A stretch of DNA of 33,555 nucleotides. Source: Armatimonadota bacterium (GTDB lineage: Bacteria > Sysuimicrobiota > Sysuimicrobiia > Sysuimicrobiales > Humicultoraceae). The stretch covers positions 1 to 33,555 of the forward strand of contig JACQHU010000019.1 in NCBI GenBank assembly GCA_016198805.1, written 5' to 3'. The translations under genes were made by a program, and so were the position numbers. A model generated the notes under the pieces. That model was not told where the DNA came from and did no database searches. It was given only the letters and a program-made list of their open reading frames with translations. This document shows, piece after piece, positions 100-15,448 of this stretch (positions within the stretch are counted from its first letter, which is position 1; each line of letters opens with the position of its first letter).

Positions 100-286
100 G
101 CACGGGGGGGCCCCAGAGGGTAGGGGGCGGTTCGATCCGGGGAACACCGCTGCTAACGGCCTGCTAACGCGCGGGGCAAGACGCGGCGGGAGGCGGTGTC
201 GCGGGGCGCGAACGCCGGGGGCGAAAACGCAGACAGGACGGGCCTTTGTGACGCGCGGCGGGACGGGGCGGGAATACCACCCCAGA

Positions 287-331
287 CTTACACGGAGGAG
301 GTCGGGGGTTCGAAACCCTCCTCGCCCACCA
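287..331 (+). tRNA. 3' half of a tRNA-Val(TAC), truncated: anticodon loop to CCA
   Basis: CTTACAC loop + GGAGG + AGGTC + GGGGG-TTCGAAA-CCCTC T-arm + CTCGCCC acceptor + A + CCA. All lengths match the 3' half of a tRNA. No D-arm, no GGGCGAG 5' acceptor strand and no CCTCC partner upstream. Confidence 0.75.
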
Positions 332-384
332 TCACCTCTGGCCAGTAAGAGCCAGGCCGTCGCCTGCGAAGGAATTCATTCTCG

Positions 385-405
385 GTCCCGCTGCACTCGC
401 GGGAC
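385..405. other. Perfect 7-bp stem-loop GTCCCGC-TGCACTC-GCGGGAC
   Basis: Inverted repeat read directly. No T-tract follows. Confidence 0.4.
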
Positions 406-482
406 GATTTGAACGCGCTGCGGAGTGACCAGTAGACCCCATGCCCGACGAGAGGAAGATCAGGGCAAGGGCTGAAATGCAA

Positions 483-497
483 CCTGATTGAATCAGG
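483..497. promoter_or_regulatory. 15-bp perfect palindrome CCTGATT-G-AATCAGG, candidate operator upstream of chrA
   Basis: 7-bp inverted repeat with a 1-nt centre, ending 14 nt before the ATG at 512. Confidence 0.4.
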
Positions 498-511
498 ATC
501 GTCGCCGCCCA

Positions 512-1699
512 ATGAGCTCCGCTGTGTCTGCCCTCGAGGTCCTGTGGGTGGTGACGCGGCTGGGCCTCACCTCGTTCGGCGGCCCCATCGCGCACCTGGG
601 GTACTTCCGTGACGAGTACGTGGCCCGGCGCCGGTGGCTGGACGACCACAGCTACGCCGACCTGGTGGCGCTGTGCCAGTTCCTTCCGGGCCCGGCGAGC
701 AGCCAGGTGGGGATCGCGATCGGCATCACCCGTGCGGGACTGCTCGGGGGCCTGACGGCCTGGCTGGGGTTTACGCTCCCCTCGGCTATCGCGATGGTGG
801 CTGTGGCCTACGGAATCCAAGCCGCCGGCGTCGCGGACGCGGGGTGGCTGCGGGGTCTGAAGATCGTGGCGGTCGCCGTCGTGGCGCACGCGCTCGCCGG
901 TATGGCGCGATCGCTCACCCCCGACCGGGCGCGCGCCAGCATCGGCCTCCTGGCCGCGCTGGTCGTCCTGCTCTGGCCCGGGGCCGCCACGCAGGTGCTC
1001 GTCATCGCCGCCGGAGGCCTCATCGGGTGGCTGCTCCTGCCGCCGGCCGAGGCGTCGCCCGGCCTGCGCCTGAAGGTGCCGATCAGCCGGCCTGCAGCGA
1101 TCACCGCCTCTGTCGCTTTCCTCATCCTGCTGGGCGGGCTGCCCTTGGTGCGGCAGGCCGTCTCTGCCCACGCCCTGGCAGTCTTCGACAGCTTCTACCG
1201 CGTGGGCTCGCTCATCTTCGGGGGCGGGCACGTGGTGCTTCCGCTGCTGCAGGGCGAGGTCGTTCGGCCTGGATGGGTCTCCAACGAGGCCTTTGTAGCG
1301 GGATATGGGGCGGCGCAGGCCGTGCCCGGCCCGCTCTTCACCTTCGCGGCCTACCTGGGCGCGGTGATGGAGCCCGGACCCAACGGGGTGGCAGGCGCCG
1401 CACTGGCGCTCGTCGCCATCTTCCTCCCCTCGTTCCTGCTGGTGATCGGCGTGCTCCCGTTCTGGAACGGGCTGCGCGAACAGCCCGCTGTGCGCTCCGC
1501 CTTGCGCGGCATCAACGCGACGGTGGTGGGCCTCCTCCTGGCCGCCCTCTACCACCCTGTTTGGACCAGTGCCATCCGGACCCCGACCGACTTCGCCCTG
1601 GCGCTGGTGGCGTTCGGGATGCTCGCGCTGTGGAGGCTTCCGTCCTGGCTGGTCGTGATCTTCACGGCGGCGGCGGCCGCCGCGCTCGCCGTGCGATGA
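512..1699 (+). CDS. chrA: Chromate transporter, CHR family (ORF can extend to a TTG at 488)
   Basis: RLGLTSFGGPIAHLGYFRDEYV...LCQFLPGPASSQVGIAIG plus the second half GGGHVVLPLLQGEVV...AQAVPGPLFTFAAYLG are ChrA signatures. Confidence 0.9.
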   Translation: MSSAVSALEVLWVVTRLGLTSFGGPIAHLGYFRDEYVARRRWLDDHSYADLVALCQFLPGPASSQVGIAIGITRAGLLGGLTAWLGFTLPSAIAMVAVAYGIQAAGVADAGWLRGLKIVAVAVVAHALAGMARSLTPDRARASIGLLAALVVLLWPGAATQVLVIAAGGLIGWLLLPPAEASPGLRLKVPISRPAAITASVAFLILLGGLPLVRQAVSAHALAVFDSFYRVGSLIFGGGHVVLPLLQGEVVRPGWVSNEAFVAGYGAAQAVPGPLFTFAAYLGAVMEPGPNGVAGAALALVAIFLPSFLLVIGVLPFWNGLREQPAVRSALRGINATVVGLLLAALYHPVWTSAIRTPTDFALALVAFGMLALWRLPSWLVVIFTAAAAAALAVR

Positions 1700-1715
1700 C
1701 CGCTGATCTCGTCTC

Positions 1716-1898
1716 GTGCTGCGAGCGGCGCAGCCCAACGGAAGCGGTTGCGGCAGCAGAAGGACGTCTCCCGCCAACGCGGGGATCAACGCGGACTGGT
1801 GGCTACTGGCATTTGTCCCTGCGGGCGGCTTCGTGCTGTGGCGCCAACGCCAGGAAGGCCGCGGCAGCGGCGGCAGCGAAGGAAGGCCCCGGGTATGA
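1716..1898 (+). CDS. Hypothetical small ORF (60 aa, GTG start) with a short hydrophobic segment, ATGA overlap with mrpA
   Basis: ORF ends ...[36 protein letters not shown]. Its TGA overlaps the ATG at 1895. Confidence 0.25.
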
Positions 1899-4201
1899 CG
1901 GTTGCGGTGCTTTCCGGCTTTGTCCTTGCGCTGGCCGCGCCGTGGCTTGTGAGAGCCACGGGCAGGGCCGCAGGATGGGTCACCGCCCTCCTCCCGCTGG
2001 CACTGACGGTGTACTTCGGGAGCCTGCTCGGCCAGATCGGAGCAGGTGACGCTCTGAACGTCACGCATTCCTGGATCCCGGCCCTCGGCATGCAGTTCTC
2101 TCTCTATCTGGACGGGTTGGGTCTCCTGTTCGCGCTGCTGATCTGCGGGATCGGCACGCTGATCTTCATCTACTCGGGCGGATACCTGCCGAATGATCCG
2201 CACCTCGGCCGGTTCCTCAGCATGCTCCTGCTCTTCATGGGCGCCATGCTGGGCCTCGTCCTCGCCGATAATGTCATCGTGCTCTTCGTGTTCTGGGAAC
2301 TCACCAGCATCAGCTCCTACTTCCTGATCGGCTTCCAGCACTCCCGGCCCGAGGCCCGGGCCGCGGCGCTCCAGGCCCTGCTGGTCACAGGTGTCGGCGG
2401 CGTGGCGCTGTTGCTGGGAGTGCTCCTGTTGGGCCAGGTCGGCGGGAGCCTGGAACTCTCCACCCTCCTGGGTCGGGGAAACGAGATCCGCGCCCATCCC
2501 CTCTACCTCCCGATCCTGGTGCTGGTGCTGCTGGGCGCCTTCACGAAGTCCGCGCAGGTCCCGTTTCACTTCTGGCTCCCGGCCGCCATGGAAGCGCCGA
2601 CACCCGTCAGCGCCTACCTGCATTCCGCTACGATGGTCAAGGCCGGCGTGTATCTGCTGGCCAGAATGAGCCCGATCCTCGGTGGTACCGACCCGTGGGT
2701 GGCCCTTGTCACCACTGTGGGCGCCGTGACGATGCTGGCGGGCGGGACCCTCGCGCTGCTGCGCACAGACCTGAAGCAGATTCTCGCGTACACCACGGTC
2801 GCGGCGCTGGGCACCCTCACCATGCTGCTGGGCATGGGGACAGCCGATGCCGCCAGAGCCTGCATGACATTCCTGCTCGCCCACGCGTTCTACAAGGGCG
2901 CCCTCTTTCTGGGGGCCGGCAGCCTGGAGCACGGGGCCGGCTCCCGTGATGTGGATCATCTCGGCGGCCTGTGGCGGACGATGCCGCTCACCACCGCGGC
3001 CGCGGGCCTGGCCGCGCTGGCGCTGGCCGGATTCGGGCCCGTGTTGAGTTTCATCGGCAAAGAACTCCTGCTGGAAGCCGTGCTCGCACAGTCACCGACA
3101 CGGGCCCTGCTGGCTCCTGCAGTACTTGCCGGCTCAGCGCTGTCGGTCGCGGCGGCGGCGATCGTTGGCCTCCGCCCGTTCGCAGGCACGAGGCCCGATG
3201 AGCTGTCAGACGCCCAGGAGGCGCCCGCCAGCCTGTGGCTCGGGCCGGTCGTGCTGGCCGCGGGCGGCGTGGTCCTGGGCCTGCGGCCGGAGATCCTGGC
3301 CGAGCCGATCGTGACAGCGTCTGCCGCATCGGTGCTGACCCGGCGCGAGGTCGCGGACCTGGCCCTCTGGCATGGGCCGAACCCGGCCCTGGCGTTCAGC
3401 GGCGCGTCGCTGGTGCTCGGTCTGCTGGTCTATCGCGCCTGGCCCACGATCCGCCGGAGCGCTGCGGCCCGCACGTGGTGGCTGAGCTGGGGGGGGCCGT
3501 CCCGCTGGTATGAACTGGGGCTTCAGGCGCTTTCCTGGCTCGCGGAGAGTCAGACGCGGCTGCTGCAGAGCGGGTATCTGCGATTGTACCTGATCATGAT
3601 CCTGATCACCGCCAACGGGCTGGCCGCTTATGCGCTGCTGGCACGTGTCCGATGGCAGCCGATTGTGTTGCAGCCAGCCGTGCAGCTCCACGACGCGTTC
3701 ATCGGCGCTCTCATCTTGCTTGGAGCCCTGGCGGCGGCGGGGTCCGCGTCACGCCTCGGCGCGGTGGCCGCCCTGGGGGTCGTTGGCGCAGGCATCTCCC
3801 TGGTTTACATCTCGTTCGGGGCGCCGGATCTGGCGATGACGCAGTTCCTGGTCGAGGCCTTCACCGTGATCCTGCTGGTGCTGGCGTTCTATCACCTGCC
3901 CAGGTTCGCCCGGTTGTCGGGGCGGACCGCCCGGCTTCGCGACGTCGTTATCGCTGGCGTCTCAGGGACGCTGGTGGCGGCCCTGGTACTCCTGACCACC
4001 ACGGCCCGCAGGGACTCCAGGATTGCGGAGTACTTCGCCGAGCACAGCGTCGCGGCCGCGCACGGTCGAAACATCGTCAACGTCATCCTGGTGGACTTCC
4101 GCAGTCTCGATACGCTGGGCGAGATTACGGTCCTGGCGACGGCGGCCATTGGGGTGTACGTTCTGCTGCGCCTCCGGCCTGAGAAAGGAAGCACACCGTG
4201 A
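1895..4201 (+). CDS. mrpA: Na+/H+ antiporter subunit A (MrpA/MnhA, with C-terminal DUF4040/MbhE-like region)
   Basis: NADH-quinone oxidoreductase L-like proton-translocating domain ([48 protein letters not shown]) plus a C-terminal extension ending at the mrpB junction. Confidence 0.93.
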
Positions 4202-4614
4202 GATCGCTGATCCTGCGCACCGCCGCGCGCCTCCTCCTCCCATTGCTGCTGCTGTTCTCGGTCTTCCTGCTCATCCGCGGCCACAATGAGCCCGGGGGCG
4301 GCTTCGCGGCCGGTCTCGTCGCCTCCGCAGCCTTCGCGCTACACGCGTTTGCTGAGGGCCTCCCGCAGACGCGGCGGATGATCCGGGTCGATCCGATCTC
4401 GCTCCTTGGCGCCGGCCTGCTCGTGACAGCCGCCGGCGGGGTTGCCGGCGTGCTGGCCGGTCAGCCCTTTCTCACCGGCCAGTGGGTGTCGCTGGCACCG
4501 GTGGGTCTGGGGCACGTGGACATCGGAACGCCGGTGGTGTTTGATGTCGGCGTCTACCTCGTCGTGGTCGGGGCGGTCCTGACGATCATCTTCACGATCA
4601 TGGAGGAAGCCTGA
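4198..4614 (+). CDS. mrpB: Na+/H+ antiporter subunit B
   Basis: [41 protein letters not shown] motifs of MnhB. GTGA overlap with mrpA. Confidence 0.93.
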
Positions 4615-4615
4615 G

Positions 4616-4963
4616 ATGCCGCTGCTTCTGGCCGTCGTTATCGGAGGCCTCTACGCCACAGCCCTGTATCTCATCCTCCGGCGCAGCATCGTGAAGCTCC
4701 TCATCGGTCTGGCCCTGTTGACCAATGCGGCGAATCTGCTGATCTTTACCTCGGCGGGATTGACCCGTGCCACAGCCCCGATCGTCCCTCTGGGCAGCGA
4801 CCGCCCCCCTGCGCCCTTTGCCGATCCGCTGGCGCAGGCGATGATCCTGACCGCGATCGTCATCGGCTTCGGCGTGCTGGCGTTCATGGTCGTGCTCGTC
4901 CATCGCGCCGTCCAGGCCGTCGGGACCGACGACCTAGACGACTTGAAGGCGACCGATACATGA
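4616..4963 (+). CDS. mrpC: Na+/H+ antiporter subunit C
   Basis: NuoK-like: [28 protein letters not shown]...[17 protein letters not shown]. Confidence 0.93.
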
Positions 4964-6477
4964 ATCTGTTCCTGCTCGGAACGCTGCTGGTCCCGCTGCT
5001 GACGGGCATCGCGTGCCTCCTGGCCTGGCGCCGGCGGACGACTCAGCGCGGTTTGGGCCTGGCCGGGGCGACGGCGCACTTTGGCGCGACGCTCGGCCTG
5101 CTGTGGACGGTCGCCTCAGACGGTATTCAGACCGCCCAGATCGGCGCCTGGCCGGCACCCTTTGGCATCACGATCGTCGCGGATCTGTTCAGCGCGATCA
5201 TGGCCGTCGTGGCCGGCATGATGGGGCTGGCCGTCACCGTCTACTCGCTGGGGAGCATGGACGCCCGGCGCGAGGAGTACGGGTACTACCCGCTGTTCCA
5301 CGTGCTGCTGCTGGGCGTCAGCGGCGCGTTTCTCGCAGGGGATATTTTTAACCTGTATGTCTGGTTCGAAGTCATGCTCATTGCATCGTTCGCGCTGCTT
5401 GTGCTCGGCGGGGAACGAGCCCAGATCGAGGGAGCGATCAAGTACGTCACGCTGAACCTCATCTCGTCAGCCTTCTTCCTGACAGCGGTCGGCATTCTCT
5501 ATGGCATGACCGGGACGCTCAATATGGCCGACCTGGCCCGCGCGCTGAGCCGGACCGCGGCGCCCGGGTTGGTCACCACGGTCGGCCTGCTGTTCTTGGT
5601 CGCCTTTGGCATCAAGGCCGCGACGTTTCCGCTGTTCTTCTGGCTGCCTGCCTCCTATCACACGCCGCCGGTTGCCACCTCCGCCATCTTCGCGGGCCTG
5701 CTCACCAAGGTCGGGGTCTACGCGCTGATTCGGGTCTTCACGTTGCTGTTCGTGCAGGATCCGGGTTTCATCCACACGCTCATCCTGGTGATCGCGGGGC
5801 TGACGATGGCCACCGGTGTCCTGGGCGCCGTCGCCCAGAACGAGTTCCGGCGGATCCTGGCGTTCCACATTGTCAGCCAGATCGGCTACATGATCATGGG
5901 GCTGGGCCTGTTTACGCCGCTCGGCCTGGCGGGCTCGATCTTCTACATCACCCATCACATCATCGTGAAGACGAACCTCTTCCTCATCAGCGGAATCGCC
6001 TACCGCTTGCGTGGGACATACGTCCTGAAAGACCTGGGCGGGCTGTACCGGACGCAGCCCGCGCTCGCGCTGCTGTTCCTGGTGCCCGCGTTTTCCCTGG
6101 CCGGCGTTCCACCGCTCTCCGGGTTTGCAGCGAAGCTCTCCCTGGTCCAGGCCGGGCTCGCCGGACAGCAGTACGCCGTCGTGGCGACGGCTCTGGCCGT
6201 GGGCCTGCTGACCCTGTTCTCGATGACCAAAATCTGGGCCGAAGCCTTTTGGAAGGGCGACACCGGCGAATCGGCCGCCACGCCGCGTCCAGGGAGTGCC
6301 GCCGGAGTGCGGCCGCGGGGGCTGACGAGCATGTTCATGCCCGTCGTCGTGCTCGCGGCCGTGACGGTCGCCATCGGGCTCGCCGCGCAGCCGCTCTTCA
6401 CCCTGACGTGGCGCGCCGCCGAGCAGCTGCTCGACCCCACCGCCTACATCAACGCCGTGCTGGGGAGCCCCCGATGA
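4960..6477 (+). CDS. mrpD: Na+/H+ antiporter subunit D
   Basis: Proton-conducting domain: [58 protein letters not shown] overlaps. Confidence 0.93.
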
Positions 6478-6944
6478 GGGTATTTCTCTGGAACCTTCTG
6501 CTCGCCCTGACCTGGACCGCGGTCACGGGACGGTTCACCCTGAGCAACCTGGCCCTGGGGTTTGCGCTCGGCTACCTGGCCCTGCGGTTCTCGGGCCTGG
6601 TGGGACGCGCCGCCTACGGGAGCAGGATCCGCCGCGTGATCGAGTTCCTGCTCTTCTACTTCTGGGAACTCCTGCTGGCGAACCTGCGGGTAGCCTACGA
6701 CGTGCTCACGCCGCGCCACCACATGAGGCCGGGGATCCTTGCCATTCCGCTGGATGCCCGGACCGACGGAGAGATCGCCATTCTTGCCAACCTGATCACG
6801 CTGACGCCGGGGACGCTCAGCCTGGACGTCTCAGACGACCGGCAGGTCCTGTATATCCACGCCACGTACGTCGACGAGGTGGAAGCGTTCCGCCAGCGGC
6901 TGAAAGAGAAGCTGGAACGCCGGGTGCTGGAGGTGACCCGATGA
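6474..6944 (+). CDS. mrpE: Na+/H+ antiporter subunit E
   Basis: [37 protein letters not shown]...[26 protein letters not shown] overlap with mrpD. Confidence 0.92.
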
Positions 6945-7225
6945 GCGGGACGGGACCCCTGCTGGCCGCGGTGTCCAACGTGGTGCTCGCCATGCTGACA
7001 TCCACCCTCCTCCTGGCCCTTGTGCGACTCGTCCGGGGGCCCAGCCTCCCCGACCGGGTTGTGGCCCTGGACCTGATCGCGTTGACCGTGGTGGGCTTCG
7101 TGGCCGTCTATGAGATACGAACTGCACAGCCTGTCTTGCTTGACGCGGCCATCGTGCTGGCGCTCATCGGCTTCCTCAGCACGGTGGCCTTCGCCCGGTA
7201 TCTCGAACGGGGAGCCAGGCGATGA
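6941..7225 (+). CDS. mrpF: Na+/H+ antiporter subunit F
   Basis: LVRLVRGPSLPDRVVALDLIALTVVGFVAVYEIRTAQPVLLDAAIVLALIGFLSTVAFARY. Confidence 0.92.
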   Translation: MSGTGPLLAAVSNVVLAMLTSTLLLALVRLVRGPSLPDRVVALDLIALTVVGFVAVYEIRTAQPVLLDAAIVLALIGFLSTVAFARYLERGARR

Positions 7226-7614
7226 CCGAATGGGTGACGGCGCTGCTGTTGCTCCTGGGCGGCGCATTCATCTTGCTGGCCGGCATCGGCATCCTTCGGA
7301 TGCCTGACGTGTACACGCGGATGCAGCCGGCCACGAAGGCCGCGACGCTCGGCGTTGGATGCCTGCTCCTGGCCGTCGCCGTGCATTTCGACGACCTGGG
7401 TATCCGGACGCGCGCGCTGGCGGCGATCGCCTTCGTGCTGCTCACGGCGCCGGTGGCGGCTCATATGATCGGCAGGGCCGCCTACATCGTCGGTGTCCCG
7501 CTGTGGGAAGGAACCATCGTAGACGAACTGCGAGGACAATACGACGTGCGGGCGGGGGTGCTGAGGAGCCGGGCCACGCGTGGCTCCGGGACCCCGGCGG
7601 CTGGGGGAGAATGA
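7222..7614 (+). CDS. mrpG: Na+/H+ antiporter subunit G
   Basis: LLLLGGAFILLAGIGILRMPDVYTRMQPATKAATLGVG...MIGRAAYIVGVPLWEGTIVDEL. Confidence 0.92.
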   Translation: MTEWVTALLLLLGGAFILLAGIGILRMPDVYTRMQPATKAATLGVGCLLLAVAVHFDDLGIRTRALAAIAFVLLTAPVAAHMIGRAAYIVGVPLWEGTIVDELRGQYDVRAGVLRSRATRGSGTPAAGGE

Positions 7615-7694
7615 GAAGGCAGGCCATGCTGGCTGTCAGGGCTTCTCTGGGGCGCTCCGTGCCTGAGCGTGCATCCCGGAGGGTGTTGCCATGA
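7611..7694 (+). CDS. Hypothetical 27-aa basic ORF bridging mrpG and the M50 protease
   Basis: MRRQAMLAVRASLGRSVPERASRRVLP*. ATGA overlap at both ends (7611 with the mrpG stop, 7691 with the M50 start). Confidence 0.3.
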   Translation: MRRQAMLAVRASLGRSVPERASRRVLP

Positions 7695-8776
7695 GGTGGG
7701 CCTGGAAACTGGGGGAAGTCGTCGGCATCGCCGTCTATGTCCATGCCACGTTCCTGATTCTCATCGGGTGGATCGCGCTCATCTACTGGACCCAGGCGCG
7801 TGAGCTGGGCGCGGTGGTCGCAGGCGTCGGGTTCATCGTGGCGATCTTCGGCTGCGTGGTGCTCCACGAGTTGGGCCATGCCCTCATGGCCATGACCTAC
7901 GGGATCAAGACGCGTGATATCACCCTGTTGCCGATCGGCGGTGTGGCGCGGCTCGAGCGGATGCCCGACGAACCGGCGCAGGAGCTCTGGGTGGCGCTCG
8001 CCGGGCCTGCCGTCAATGTCGCCATCGCGCTGGTGCTGCTGGCCTGGATGCAGCTGACCGCCGGGCTGGAGCCGATCAGCCGCCTCACCATCACGCAGGG
8101 GCCCTTCCTGGAACGGCTGATGATCGTCAATATCTTCCTGGCCGCGTTCAACCTGCTCCCGGCGTTCCCCATGGACGGCGGGCGGGTCGTGCGCGCCCTG
8201 CTGGCGATGCGGATGGACTATACGCGGGCGACGCAGGTGGCCGCCGCCCTGGGGCAGGGCATGGCGCTCCTGTTCGGATTCCTGGGACTGCTCATCAACC
8301 CGTTCCTGCTGTTCATCGCGCTCTTCGTCTGGATCGGCGCCACCCAGGAGGCGAGCCTGGTGCAGATGAAGTCCGCCCTCAGCGGGATTCCGGTTGGCCG
8401 GGCGATGATCACGGAGTTCCGCGTGCTCGCTCCTGAGGATCTCCTGCGGCAGGCGATCGATCTGTTGCTGGCGGGGACCCAGCAGGATTTCCCGGTGCTC
8501 GAAGACGCGCGGGTCGTAGGCGTGCTGACGCGCAGCGACCTGCTGGTGGCCCTGGCGCAGCGCGGGCAAGAGGCACGCGTGGCCGATGTGATGCAGCGGG
8601 AGTTCATGGTCGCAGACCCCCACGAGATGCTGGAAGCGGCATTCATCCGGATGCAGGGCTGCGCGTGCCACACGCTGCCGGTGATCCGAGGGGGCCGGCT
8701 TGTCGGATTGATTACCATGGAAAACGTCGGCGAGTTCGTGGCGGTCCAGGCCGCGCTGGGTGCCGTAAAAGGCTGA
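7691..8776 (+). CDS. Site-2 protease, M50 family, with C-terminal CBS domains
   Basis: HELGH zinc motif (VVLHELGHALMAM), NLLPAFPMDGGRV motif, multiple TM segments, C-terminal CBS pair (VGRAMITEF...VADVMQREFMV...GGRLVGLITMENVGEFV). SD GGAGGG upstream. Confidence 0.92.
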   Translation: MRWAWKLGEVVGIAVYVHATFLILIGWIALIYWTQARELGAVVAGVGFIVAIFGCVVLHELGHALMAMTYGIKTRDITLLPIGGVARLERMPDEPAQELWVALAGPAVNVAIALVLLAWMQLTAGLEPISRLTITQGPFLERLMIVNIFLAAFNLLPAFPMDGGRVVRALLAMRMDYTRATQVAAALGQGMALLFGFLGLLINPFLLFIALFVWIGATQEASLVQMKSALSGIPVGRAMITEFRVLAPEDLLRQAIDLLLAGTQQDFPVLEDARVVGVLTRSDLLVALAQRGQEARVADVMQREFMVADPHEMLEAAFIRMQGCACHTLPVIRGGRLVGLITMENVGEFVAVQAALGAVKG

Positions 8777-8906
8777 GGGTCAGTAGCGCAGCCGCGCGCC
8801 CACGCCGCCCACCGCAGCTGATGCGGGATCCCCCGACGGCTCAGGGCCTCGGCAGCCTGTCGGACGAGCCCTTCGCCGGCCGCCAGCCGCCTGGTTCTGA
8901 AAGCGA

Positions 8907-10682
8907 TCAGAGCGGCCAGAACCACAGGATGAGCGGCACCGCCACCGCGACGATGACGACCTCAAGCGGCAGACCCACACGCCAGTAGTCGCCGAACTGG
9001 TAGCCACCCGGTCCCATCACCAGGGTGTTCGATTGATGCCCGATCGGCGTGAGAAACGCGGAGGAGGCACCGATCGCGACCGCCATGAGGAAGGGATCGA
9101 TCGACACGCCCATGCCGTGGGCGACGCCGATCGCAATGGGCGCCATCACTATGGCCGCGGCCGCATTGTTGACGAGATCCGAAAGGAACATGGTGCCCAC
9201 CAGGACGATCGTGAGCGTGGCCACGGGCGGCAGTTGCGCGGACAGGGCCAGCAGCGCGCCGGCGATGAGCCGGGCGCCGCCCGTGGTCTCCAGGGCCCGG
9301 CCGACCGGAATCATGGCGCCGAGCAGGACGATGATCGGCCAGTCGATGCTCTCGTAGAGCTCGCGAAGCGGGAGCAGCCCGACCAGCACCATAGCCAGGG
9401 CCGCCGTGGTGAAGGCGATCTGCACCGGCGCCAGCCCCGTGGCGGCGGCCGCCAGGGCCAGGCTGAAGATGCCCACCGCCGGCAGGAATCGGAGCGGCTG
9501 CCCGATCCGAAGCCCTCGCTCGGCCAGCGGCAGACATCCCAGCAGCGGCAGCACCTCGGCGAGCGCCTCCTCCCCGCCCTGGAGGAGCAGGACATCGCCG
9601 GCCCGGAAGCGGATATCCGACAGCCGCGCCTTGAGCCGCGCCCCCTGACGCGCCACAGCCAGCAGGTTCACGCCGTGGCGCCGGCGGAGGTTCAGGCTCC
9701 GCGCGGTCTTGCCCACGATGCGAGCGTCGAGCGTGACGACGGCCTCGACGATGGTGACTTCGTCCGAGCCGAGTGCGTCTTCTCCGAGCTGCTTGGCTCC
9801 AACCAGCTTCAGGCCGGTCTTGTCGATCAGCGCCTGCAGGTCTTCAGAGTCGGCCTCGATGACGAGGCCATCGCCCGCCCGCAGGAGTTCGGACCCGGAG
9901 GGCGCCGGGAACCGCCGTTCGCCGCGCACGAGGGCCACGACGGTGATCTCCGCGTCGTCCATCGCCTCGAGGTCCCGGATCGGCTGGTCCACGACCTTCG
10001 ACTCCGGCGGCACCCGGACCTCGGTGATGTAGCTCTCGATCTCGAAGAGCTCCTGGCGGGATGTCTTTCCCCTACGCCGCGGAACGAGCCGCCATCCCAC
10101 CAGCGCCATGAAGAGCACGCCAGCGACGGTGACCCCCAGGCCGACCGGCGTGAAGTCGAACATGCGAAACGGCTCGGCGCCGTCCCGCGCGCGGAAGGTG
10201 GCGATGATGATGTTCGGCGGCGTGCCGATGAGGGTGATCAACCCGCCGAGCAGTGAGCCGAAGGCCAGAGGCATGAGGAGAGCCGAGGGGGGGTTGTCGC
10301 TCCTACGCGCCAGCCGGATCGCGATGGGCATGAACAGGGCCAGTGCGCCCACATTGTTCATGAAGGCCGACGCCGCCGCGACCACGCCCGTCAGCGCCCC
10401 GACCTGGACAATGAGTCGATCGCCGATGCGTGACATCCAGTCAGCCACCACATGGACCGCGCCCGACGTGAAGAGGCCGCGGCTCACGACCAGCACCGCG
10501 GCCACCGTGATCACGGCCGGATGCCCGAACCCATCGAACGCCTCGCCCGGAGGCACGAGTCCCGTCACGGTGACCACCAGGAGGGCCAGGAGCGCGACGA
10601 TGTCGTATCGCCAGCGCCCGGTGATGAACAACACCAGCGACATGGCCAGGACGCCGAAGACGATGGCCTGCTCGGCCGTCAT
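8907..10682 (-). CDS. SLC13/DASS-family permease with RCK_C (TrkA-C) domains
   Basis: EAFDGFGHPAVITVAAVLVVSRGL; MNNVGALALFMPIAI; GSLLGGLITLIGTPPNIIIA; two central TrkA-C-like modules; C-terminal MAPIAIGVAHGMG. Confidence 0.9.
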   Translation of the reverse strand: MTAEQAIVFGVLAMSLVLFITGRWRYDIVALLALLVVTVTGLVPPGEAFDGFGHPAVITVAAVLVVSRGLFTSGAVHVVADWMSRIGDRLIVQVGALTGVVAAASAFMNNVGALALFMPIAIRLARRSDNPPSALLMPLAFGSLLGGLITLIGTPPNIIIATFRARDGAEPFRMFDFTPVGLGVTVAGVLFMALVGWRLVPRRRGKTSRQELFEIESYITEVRVPPESKVVDQPIRDLEAMDDAEITVVALVRGERRFPAPSGSELLRAGDGLVIEADSEDLQALIDKTGLKLVGAKQLGEDALGSDEVTIVEAVVTLDARIVGKTARSLNLRRRHGVNLLAVARQGARLKARLSDIRFRAGDVLLLQGGEEALAEVLPLLGCLPLAERGLRIGQPLRFLPAVGIFSLALAAAATGLAPVQIAFTTAALAMVLVGLLPLRELYESIDWPIIVLLGAMIPVGRALETTGGARLIAGALLALSAQLPPVATLTIVLVGTMFLSDLVNNAAAAIVMAPIAIGVAHGMGVSIDPFLMAVAIGASSAFLTPIGHQSNTLVMGPGGYQFGDYWRVGLPLEVVIVAVAVPLILWFWPL

Positions 10683-10796
10683 CCCTGTCTCCTCACTGAC
10701 GCGGGACCACGATCATGGCGACCTGACGCGCATGCTTCGTGGCCGTTCGAGCCCTCTCCCCAGGAACGTCGCCAGCCAGGCCACAAACGTAGCGCG

Positions 10797-12032
10797 TTAC
10801 ACGCCGAGAAGCGACGCATACAGCCGGAGCTCATCGGCAATCAACCGGGTCAGCAGGAATTGGCGGCGTACCAGCTCCCGCCCGCGCTTTCCCAGCTCCC
10901 TGGCCTCTTCAGGATGCTCCAGCAGCCACAGGATCCGGTCGGCGGCCTCTTCCACGGAGGCGACGAGAAAGCCCCCACCCTCACGCATCTGCATGGGGAT
11001 CCCACCGGCTCGCCCCGCCACCACGGGCGTGCCCTTCCAGAGCGCCTCGGAAATCACCAGGCCGAATCCCTCACGAATCGACTTCTGGATGACCACCTGC
11101 GAGAGGCGCTGGACCGCGTTGACCTCGATGTTGCCCACGCCGGTCAGGTTCGTGAAGATGTGGATCTCCCGGTCGGTCCGGGAGGCTTCCAGGATCTGGT
11201 GGTAGATGTCCCACCCTTCGGGATCGTCGAGCGCCATGGATCCCACCAGCGCGAGCTGCAACTTGGGAATCGCCTGCTTGACGCGCCGGTACGACTCAAT
11301 CACGCCCAGCGGGTCCTTCCAGGGGTCGAACCGCGAGACCTGAGTGACCAGAGGCCGGTCCACATCCACCCCAATCCACCGGAGCAGCCGCCGGGCAAAC
11401 TCCGGGGCGATCTCGATGTTCTTGGGACTCTCGGGGTCGATGGCGGGCGGGATCATCTCGATGCGATGGACCTGGCAGTCCGGCGGGACGAAGTCCTGGA
11501 GCGTGAAGACGGCGGCATCGTAGTCGCTCAGGTAGGGGCGCAGGAATCCCCACACCTGGGGGTTGGGCTCGGAGGTATCGATGTGACACCGCCAGATCCA
11601 CCTGGCCGCATTCTTTCCACGGAAATGGAGCAGGGCCAGCGGCTGAGGATCGTGGACCACGATCACATCATACGGTTCTTCCAGCAACTGCGCGTTTCTC
11701 GTGGAGTAGGTGAGATACGTCTCCTGCTCCGTCGTCGCGAGTTCGCGGGACGCTCCTTGCAGCCCGTTGTGGATCGTCTTGGTCACGCGGAAGAACGCCT
11801 CGTCCCCCGTGATCAGCTTCCAGTCGGCTTGGATTCCCAGGTCGCGCAACAGCGGGATCTGCGAACGGAGAATCTCGGCCACCCCTCCCCCGTACGGCGT
11901 GGCGTTGATGTGGAGGACGCGCGCTCCCCGGAGATCCTCGGCCTGCGCCCGCAGCGCCTCGACGACCTCGACACCCGCACTGGTGTTGTAGCTGTCGATG
12001 GATTGCGTGCCGACGTCAACGGATGCCAGCAT
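10797..12032 (-). CDS. GT4-family glycosyltransferase, trehalose synthase (TreT)-like
   Basis: [101 protein letters not shown]. Confidence 0.85.
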
Positions 12033-12076
12033 GAAGCCCTTAAGGGATAGGAGGTGATCTCCGCGGCGCCGCCCGC

Positions 12077-12883
12077 CTACCTGCAGGGGACCCGCAGGGC
12101 AGACGAGCTGATGCCGATCCCCCAGGTGTCATCACTCATCCCGCCCCCGGCGAAGATGCCGGCGACCTGGCCGGAGCCGTTGAGCACCGGCGATCCGCTG
12201 TGCCCGGGCGCCGCCGCCCGATCATAGACGACCGTGAATACCGGGGTCCCGTCGGGCGCGCGGTTCACCTCCCGCACCGTCCCCGTAGCCGACCAGCGGC
12301 GAGGGATGGGGAGGCGCCCGAACCCCACGATGCGCACCCCATCCCCCTGGCGCGGGTCTGCGCCGAGGGTCAGGGGGAAGAACGACGGCATCGGCCCTTC
12401 GTGCTTTCTGGCGACGGTGATGAACTGACCGTCGGGGGCGCGTACGCCCCACTGTCCGAAGGGCACGTCAGGGAGGACGACTTTGATCTGCGCCACATCC
12501 CGCTCCAGGGGCACGCCTGCCGGTGCCGGCCGCGTGGGATCCTGCGTGAGCCGGCTCGCGCACACCACTTTGGCGGAAAAGAACGCGCCGTCCAGAATCG
12601 CCAGGAGCTGGAAGCGTGCTGGGTCTCGATGCGGGCGCCAGACGACGTGGCTGGTGGTCAGTGCCGTTCCCTCGGCGTCGGTGAAGAAGGCGGTGCCCGA
12701 ACTGAACTCGCGATACCCGCTGCCTTCCTGGCCGATGACCTCGAGGAGAAACACGCCGCGCTCGGCGGCCGTGGTCTCTTGCGCGGCGGCGTGCGGTCGA
12801 CCGACGAGGACAGCGATGGTGGCGGCCAGCGCCGCGCACATGACGACCACGCCGAAGCGACCGAGCGCCATCTGGCCGCCCAC
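12077..12883 (-). CDS. Secreted trypsin-like (S1) serine protease
   Basis: N-terminal signal peptide ([29 protein letters not shown]); plausible triad His ([10 protein letters not shown]), Asp ([10 protein letters not shown]), Ser ([20 protein letters not shown]). Confidence 0.82.
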
Positions 12884-12917
12884 CTCCGTGATTGGTGTCT
12901 GTCTTCTTGACCCGGCG

Positions 12918-14192
12918 CTATCCGGCCTCTCGAATCCCGGCGGACCCGTCCCGTACCACGCGGGCGCCCAGGAGGGTCAGCTTCCCCTCCAGCCCCTCAT
13001 ACCCGCGGTCGAGGTTTTCGACCTTCGAGATCTCGGTCTCCCCCTCCGCCGCCAGGGCCGCGATGACCACGGCGGCCCCGCCGCGGATGTCCGGCGCCTC
13101 TACCGGAGCGCCGGAAAGGCGCGACGGCCCGTTGACGTGCACCGTTTCCCCTTCCACCCTGACGTCCGCGCCCATCCGCCGAAGTTCGTCGGTGTACGCG
13201 AACCGTGACTCGAAGACCGTCTCGCGGATCCTGGAGGTGCCGCGGGCCAGGGTCAGCATGGCGGCCATCTGCGGGTGCAGGTCGGTGGCGAAACCGGGAT
13301 AGGGCGCGGTGTCGACGTCGAGCGCCCGGATCTCGCCCGTCGCCCGCACGCGGACCCCGTCGGTGCCGGGCACCACTTCCAGCCCGGCTTCCTCCAGCTT
13401 CGTCAGCAGCGCGGTCACGTGCTCGGGGATCATCCCCTCGACCAGGACATCACCGCCGGTGGCGGCGCCGGCCAGCAGGTAGGTGCCGCCTTCATTGCGG
13501 TCCGGAACGATCGTGTACGTGCTGCCGTGGAGTTCGTCGGTGCCCTCGATCGTGATGGTATCGGTGCCGGCTCCCCGGATCCGGGCCCCCATGAGGTTGA
13601 GGAATACCGCGGTGTCGACGATCTCCGGCTCGCGGGCGGCATTCTGCAGCACCGTGGTTCCCTTCGCCATGCTGGCCGCCAGCATCATGTTGGTGGTGGT
13701 GCCGAAGCTGCTGCGGGGCACGTAGAACAGCCCCCCGCGCAGGCGGCGAGCCGCGGCCTTCACGAAGCCGTGCTCGGTGACCACCTTCGCGCCGAGTGCG
13801 GCAAAGCCCCGCAGGTGAAAGTCTACGGGCCGGGCCCCGATCGAGCATCCGCCCGGCAGCGGCACCTGCGCCCGGCCCATCCGCCCCAGCAGCACGCCCG
13901 CGGTGTAGAACGACGCCCGCATGCTGCGGCAGAGGTCGTACGGGGCCGCGTGATTCGTCAGCCCGCGCGCGTCGATGGTCAGGCGCCCGGGGACGAAGGC
14001 GATGCGCGCTCCCAGCGCTTCCAGGATCTCCACCAGGGTGGTGACGTCCCGGCAGTGCGGAACGTTTTCGAGGGTCGAGACGTCGGCAGCCAGCGCGGCA
14101 GCGGCGATGATGGCGAGCGAGCTGTTCTTCCCTCCGGCGACATTGACCGCGCCGCGCAGACGGCGGCCGCCTGTGATGCGTAACGTCTCCAC
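12918..14192 (-). CDS. murA: UDP-N-acetylglucosamine 1-carboxyvinyltransferase (GTG start)
   Basis: METLRITGGRRLRGAVNVAGGKNSSLAIIAAAALA (GTG start read as Met); LPGGCSIGARPVDFHLRGF with catalytic Cys; YPGFATDLHPQMAAMLTLARGTSRIRETVFESRFAYTDELRRMGA. Confidence 0.95.
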   Translation of the reverse strand: METLRITGGRRLRGAVNVAGGKNSSLAIIAAAALAADVSTLENVPHCRDVTTLVEILEALGARIAFVPGRLTIDARGLTNHAAPYDLCRSMRASFYTAGVLLGRMGRAQVPLPGGCSIGARPVDFHLRGFAALGAKVVTEHGFVKAAARRLRGGLFYVPRSSFGTTTNMMLAASMAKGTTVLQNAAREPEIVDTAVFLNLMGARIRGAGTDTITIEGTDELHGSTYTIVPDRNEGGTYLLAGAATGGDVLVEGMIPEHVTALLTKLEEAGLEVVPGTDGVRVRATGEIRALDVDTAPYPGFATDLHPQMAAMLTLARGTSRIRETVFESRFAYTDELRRMGADVRVEGETVHVNGPSRLSGAPVEAPDIRGGAAVVIAALAAEGETEISKVENLDRGYEGLEGKLTLLGARVVRDGSAGIREAG

Positions 14193-14579: not shown

Positions 14580-14656
14580 TGGTGGGCCCGCCTGGCTTCG
14601 ATCCAGGAACCTGCGCCTTATGAGGGCGCTGCTCTCACCACTTGAGCTACGGGCCC
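14580..14656 (-). tRNA. tRNA with CAT anticodon (Ile2-type favoured over elongator Met)
   Basis: GGGCCCG-TA-GCTC-AAGTGGTGA-GAGC-A-GCGCC-CTCATAA-GGCGC-AGGTT-CCTGG-ATCGAAG-CCAGG-CGGGCCC-A-CCA; full cloverleaf, 77 nt. C4-G69/C5-G68 favour Ile2. Confidence 0.9.
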
Positions 14657-14665
14657 GCGCGACGA

Positions 14666-15448
14666 TTATAGCATCACAGGGCCTTCGCCACCCCGTGGGC
14701 GGTCTGCGGCGGGATCATAGACGATCCGCATCAGGTACAGCCCGTGGGCCGGGGCCGGCGGGCCGGCCCGTTGAGTGTCACGGGACCCCAGGATGGCTGG
14801 AATGGCGTCGGGCGCCAGCGCCCCGCGGCCGATCTGAAGCAGCGTCCCCACCATGCGGCGCGCCATCTGCCTGAGGAACCGGTTGGCGGCCACGGTGAAG
14901 AGGATCAGGTCGCCTCGGCGCTCAATAGTCACGGCGGCCAGCGAGCAGATCGTGGAGGCCGTCGCGGTGCCACTCACGCGGAAGGCCGCGAAGTCGTGTC
15001 GGCCTTCCAGATGGGCTGCCGCGGCCCGCATCGCTTCCAGATCCAGCGGGCCAGGCACGTGGTGCGCGTAGCCGCGCAGCAGGGCCGACGGTCTGGGACG
15101 GGCCAGCACCGCGTAGCGGTAGATCCGCAGCCGCGCGTCGCGCCGGGCGTGGAACGTGGCCGCGGCCTCGCACACCTCGCGGACCACGATGTCGGGAGGC
15201 AGGAGCGCGTTGAGTCCGTCGCGGATCCGCTCGGCGGCGAGGCCACTCTCGGTCGTCAGATGAGCCACCTGGCCCAGCGCGTGGACCCCCGCATCGGTGC
15301 GGCCGGCGCCCACCACGCGGTGAGGCGTCTGCAACAGCCGGGCGGCCGCCTCCTCCAGCGCCGCCTGGATCGATGGGACGTCCGGCTGGCGCTGCCAGCC
15401 GGCGTAGCGCCCCCCATCGTACTCGATCACCAGTTGCAGCGTGCGCAT
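14666..15448 (-). CDS. truA: tRNA pseudouridine(38-40) synthase TruA
   Basis: IEYDGGRYAGWQRQPDVPSIQAALEEAAARLL; VGAGRTDAGVHALGQVAHL; NRFLRQMARRMVGTLLQIGRG. Confidence 0.95.
   Translation of the reverse strand: MRTLQLVIEYDGGRYAGWQRQPDVPSIQAALEEAAARLLQTPHRVVGAGRTDAGVHALGQVAHLTTESGLAAERIRDGLNALLPPDIVVREVCEAAATFHARRDARLRIYRYAVLARPRPSALLRGYAHHVPGPLDLEAMRAAAAHLEGRHDFAAFRVSGTATASTICSLAAVTIERRGDLILFTVAANRFLRQMARRMVGTLLQIGRGALAPDAIPAILGSRDTQRAGPPAPAHGLYLMRIVYDPAADRPRGGEGPVML

Follow-up and report, generated by a model that had tools for sequence, protein, structure and literature searches.

Near the left end of a metagenomic contig lies the 3′ half of a tRNA-Val(TAC) gene with unrelated DNA directly upstream of it, and the question that this locus raises is how the gene came to be cut. 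The window analyzed here is the whole of contig C169 (33,555 bp), which belongs to a metagenome bin that is 78% complete and totals 1.49 Mb in 207 contigs. A lone 3′ end of a tRNA gene is the ordinary footprint of a mobile element that has inserted into a tRNA gene. With a probability of roughly 0.85, the half-gene at 287–331 is the distal att scar of an element that integrated, probably by means of a tyrosine integrase, into the native tRNA-Val(TAC) gene, with the crossover falling within the anticodon arm. Such an integration would displace the chromosome's own 3′ half and leave it as a remnant, and the attP copy of the element should rebuild a complete tRNA-Val(TAC) at the opposite end of the element, beyond the left edge of the contig. 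From this model we infer the class of the integrase, the element nature of the left 286 bp and the rebuilt tRNA.

The half-gene and its left boundary

The presumed att core at 287–331 of the forward strand (CTTACACGGAGGAGGTCGGGGGTTCGAAACCCTCCTCGCCCACCA) comprises 45 bases, from the first base of the anticodon loop (position 32) through the CCA, with the anticodon TAC. Read directly, it follows the predicted layout of a tRNA 3′ half position by position: the anticodon loop CTTACAC (287–293, with TAC at 289–291), GGAGG (294–298), AGGTC (299–303), a T arm of 5-7-5 (GGGGG at 304–308, TTCGAAA at 309–315 and CCCTC at 316–320), CTCGCCC (321–327), A (328) and the encoded CCA (329–331). In an alignment with the intact tRNA-Val(TAC) of a relative (G004), 44 of the 45 bases are identical (E = 6.9e-16), and the homology stops abruptly at 287, that is, at tRNA position 32. 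At the level of sequence, so close a match confirms that the likeness to tRNA-Val(TAC) is real and not due to chance. The original prediction had started the half-gene at 283. The half itself stands, with its true start at 287, and the four bases before it are unrelated. The upstream bases CCAGA (282–286) could form at most two of five pairs with GGAGG.

Recovery of a complete tRNA-Val at this place by a covariance model had been named as a result that would speak against a scar. Neither ARAGORN nor Rfam at its gathering cut-off called a tRNA at 287–331, and the sole tRNA found by them in the window is a tRNA-Met at 14580–14656. A permissive Rfam scan gave 21.5 bits (cut-off 29) at 266–328, with GGGCGGG (266–272) as a stand-in acceptor strand. 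This interval was rejected as a full tRNA: the D arm and the anticodon stem are both unable to form, and an acceptor-like 7-mer arises in about 13% of shuffles of the G-rich left flank. No 5′ half that completes the acceptor, D and anticodon stems accompanies 287–331. Indeed, no credible tRNA 5′ half was found in the window or in the bin, as had been claimed from the sequence. Searches of the bin returned two weak matches only, on contigs C159 and C142, both due to chance and located in unrelated sequence that does not have the form of a tRNA.

The native tRNA-Val(TAC) site in family relatives

To the right of the half-gene, the window carries murA (12918–14189, minus strand; EPSP_synthase/TIGR01072), the above tRNA-Met(CAT) (minus strand) and truA (14666–15448, minus strand; Pfam); rpoA, map, adk, secY and genes for ribosomal proteins come next on the right. 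The murA gene is 69%–82% identical to the family orthologues that face tRNA-Val(TAC). In all seven same-family relatives that have both tRNA-Val(TAC) and murA complete on one contig (G001, G002, G003, G004, G006, G007 and G009), an intact tRNA-Val(TAC) occupies this position, in this orientation, and faces murA. Hence the orphan half sits at the native tRNA-Val(TAC) site and is oriented as the native gene. Beyond murA, within the stretches read, tRNA-Met is kept in six of the seven and truA, on the same contig, in five. G008 and G010, which have tRNA-Val and murA on separate contigs, stand outside this count.

To the left of the intact tRNA, the relatives carry, to varying degrees, DUF4760, zinc-ribbon, RNase H/β-lactamase-like, NamZ and MFS genes, and in the window this conserved sequence is replaced by unrelated DNA. 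Chromosome to the right of the orphan half and foreign DNA to its left would be the geometry of a distal att site, which these sequence comparisons strongly support. The comparison with relatives lacking the insert, proposed as a check, thus shows the intact gene at the same locus. The prediction of an att scar with an element on the left and chromosome on the right is upheld by synteny (a native site facing murA, tRNA-Met and truA) and by the orphan halves found elsewhere in the order, with the element itself still a prediction. The locus illustrates how synteny by itself, in the absence of the element, can tell which side of an integration event is chromosome.

The interval between the half-tRNA and murA (332–12917) is lineage specific at this site and measures 12.6 kb, compared to 0.27–7.5 kb in the relatives examined. 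By Pfam and NCBIfam, it contains chrA (488–1699), an mrp operon (mrpA-G, 1748–7614) and an M50-CBS protease gene (7691–8776) on the plus strand, and genes for a CitT-like transporter (8907–10682), a TreT-like glycosyltransferase (10797–12032) and a trypsin-like protease (12077–12883) on the minus strand. None of these genes is present in the corresponding interval of the relatives examined. The chrA/mrp side had been taken as chromosomal backbone throughout. Because the 12.6 kb are absent from the site in relatives, backbone is demonstrated only from murA rightwards, and the interval could represent either accessory DNA of older date or normal content of this lineage. Under the att model, these 12.6 kb would have been in place on the right-hand side of the tRNA before the element came in, unless they are themselves an earlier tandem island. 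No further copy of the att core was detected within 332–12917, and there is no recombinase among its named genes.

Within the family of the window, the tRNA-Val(TAC)-murA interval is highly variable. The two genes converge in this family and are co-directional in those other families that were examined within the order, a difference that suggests an old inversion. The arrangement also agrees in G005, outside the count of seven, whose contig (C262, match at 1–45) begins at tRNA-Val(TAC) position 32, the same base as the orphan half of the window. Coincidence could explain this start, as could an assembly that broke at a second copy.

Orphan halves in the order and alternatives to integration

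A survey of 43 genomes of the order with a 75-base tRNA query, followed by reading of the flanks, identified orphan Val(TAC) 3′ halves in four other genomes: one each in G034, G016 and G040 and two in G025. Their boundaries fall between about positions 25 and 35. The tRNA-Val(TAC) gene is therefore a recurrent integration target, which tells genome closers where to seek mobile elements. The G034 orphan extends from about position 25 to the CCA and is 100% identical to the intact gene of that genome. In G025 (C119), two orphan halves lie in tandem at about 1447–1493 and 1589–1641, about 95 bases apart and 1.4–1.6 kb from the contig end, and look like the remains of successive integrations. The G016 orphan (C306, 8682–8726) has its boundary at 31/32, and at the cut-off applied this genome, which is 97% complete, showed no full-length Val(TAC) match. 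A sister-family comparison of empty sites yielded little beyond a match between the right flanks of the orphans in G034 and G016. The left flanks of the window, G034, G025, G016 and G040 are unlike one another, and no element common to the orphan sites was found. The orphans of G025, G034 and the window are each within about 1.6 kb of a contig end. We suggest, tentatively, that tRNA-Val(TAC) may be an order-wide hotspot for integrative elements of a family not yet described, and that metagenome assembly has repeatedly failed to capture their bodies.

Since the bin is fragmented and the window, a complete contig, ends at base 1, the presumed element side amounts to 286 bases only. This left flank (1–286) contains no recognizable gene, has no Pfam match and showed no meaningful homologue in searches against the family, phages and plasmids. 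A 33-residue minus-strand reading in it (RYVVVHSPERL...) looked transposase-like and was rejected; neither Pfam nor tblastn against plasmids supports it. The contig stops at base 1, and when the bin was searched, neither genes of the element nor its integrase nor the rebuilt tRNA-Val(TAC) came to light. The two tyrosine recombinases in the bin resemble a conserved pair present across much of the family and are taken to be Xer proteins. Two genes of the relatives' left backbone were sought in the bin and not found, which fits contigs missing from the bin. No phage or viral contig with the att core was detected in IMG/VR by exact or loosened search, and the GTDB contigs with the core were only two intact Planctomycetota tRNAs.

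A chimeric assembly, in which the genome truly has the 5′ half and the first 286 bases were misjoined near the contig end, would account for a left flank without homologue in the family and for a junction (286/287) just 286 bases from the end of one of 207 contigs. Such a break is expected anywhere, yet the boundary lies in the anticodon arm, as it does in the orphan halves of the four other genomes, which makes a misjoin unlikely. It is quite improbable that the tRNA gene was cut, with no integrase involved, by an old rearrangement or deletion in the chromosome. Families of the order differ in how tRNA-Val and murA are arranged, which shows that this region has been rearranged, and the 8.6 kb to the left of the G016 orphan hold no integrase, the scanned ORFs being metabolic genes. 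In contrast, the repetition of anticodon-arm boundaries in five genomes, always with a 3′ fragment, points to site-specific recombination, and a single difference in 45 bases from the working gene of another genus makes an old relic unlikely. A working split or intron-bearing tRNA gene with its 5′ half elsewhere can be dismissed as barely conceivable: the 45 bases are conserved as well as working tRNAs and no intact tRNA-Val(TAC) was found by search of the 78%-complete bin, but neither the bin nor the sequence immediately upstream has a 5′ half, Rfam at a permissive threshold detected no intron family over 1–800, and an intact gene is the normal form in the family.

Known tRNA-gene islands and remnants

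Read as the product of integration, the feature is of a well-known kind, an ordinary integration scar at the recurrent tRNA-Val(TAC) target. Analogous to Islander-type tDNA islands of the anticodon-centered (A) crossover class (PMC4383910), the window has a displaced 3′ fragment from the anticodon region. This is the commonest configuration, with 2083 of 3919 tDNA islands anticodon-centered and 3760 of 3919 having a 3′ fragment (PMC4383910). The likeness extends to gene orientation and native locus (PMC4383910), with the window known from one end alone. Islander looks for a displaced 3′ tDNA fragment that is oriented like its target gene, and for relatives that lack the island and keep the target intact at that locus; the former is found at 287–331 and the latter in each of the seven informative family relatives. 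Its definition also includes a rebuilt, intact tRNA gene at the far end of the island on the same replicon and a non-Xer integrase gene between that tRNA and the fragment, both of which would lie in the unassembled stretch to the left of base 1.

Remnant tRNA 3′ fragments of earlier integrations, also tandem ones, provide a second parallel: like them, the half in the window is non-functional and is not accepted by tRNA finders. In contrast to such remnants, it has drifted little (1/45 relative to another genus), suggesting either that the event was recent or that the element remains in place. Remnants of this type occur in the same order in G025, where two are in tandem, and in G040. The latter genome (C123, 10013–11103) has an intact gene with an orphan half (35 to CCA) about 1 kb downstream on the same strand, and a TumE-like toxin gene and a winged-helix gene lie between the two. 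The sequences just past both CCA ends in G040 also look alike.
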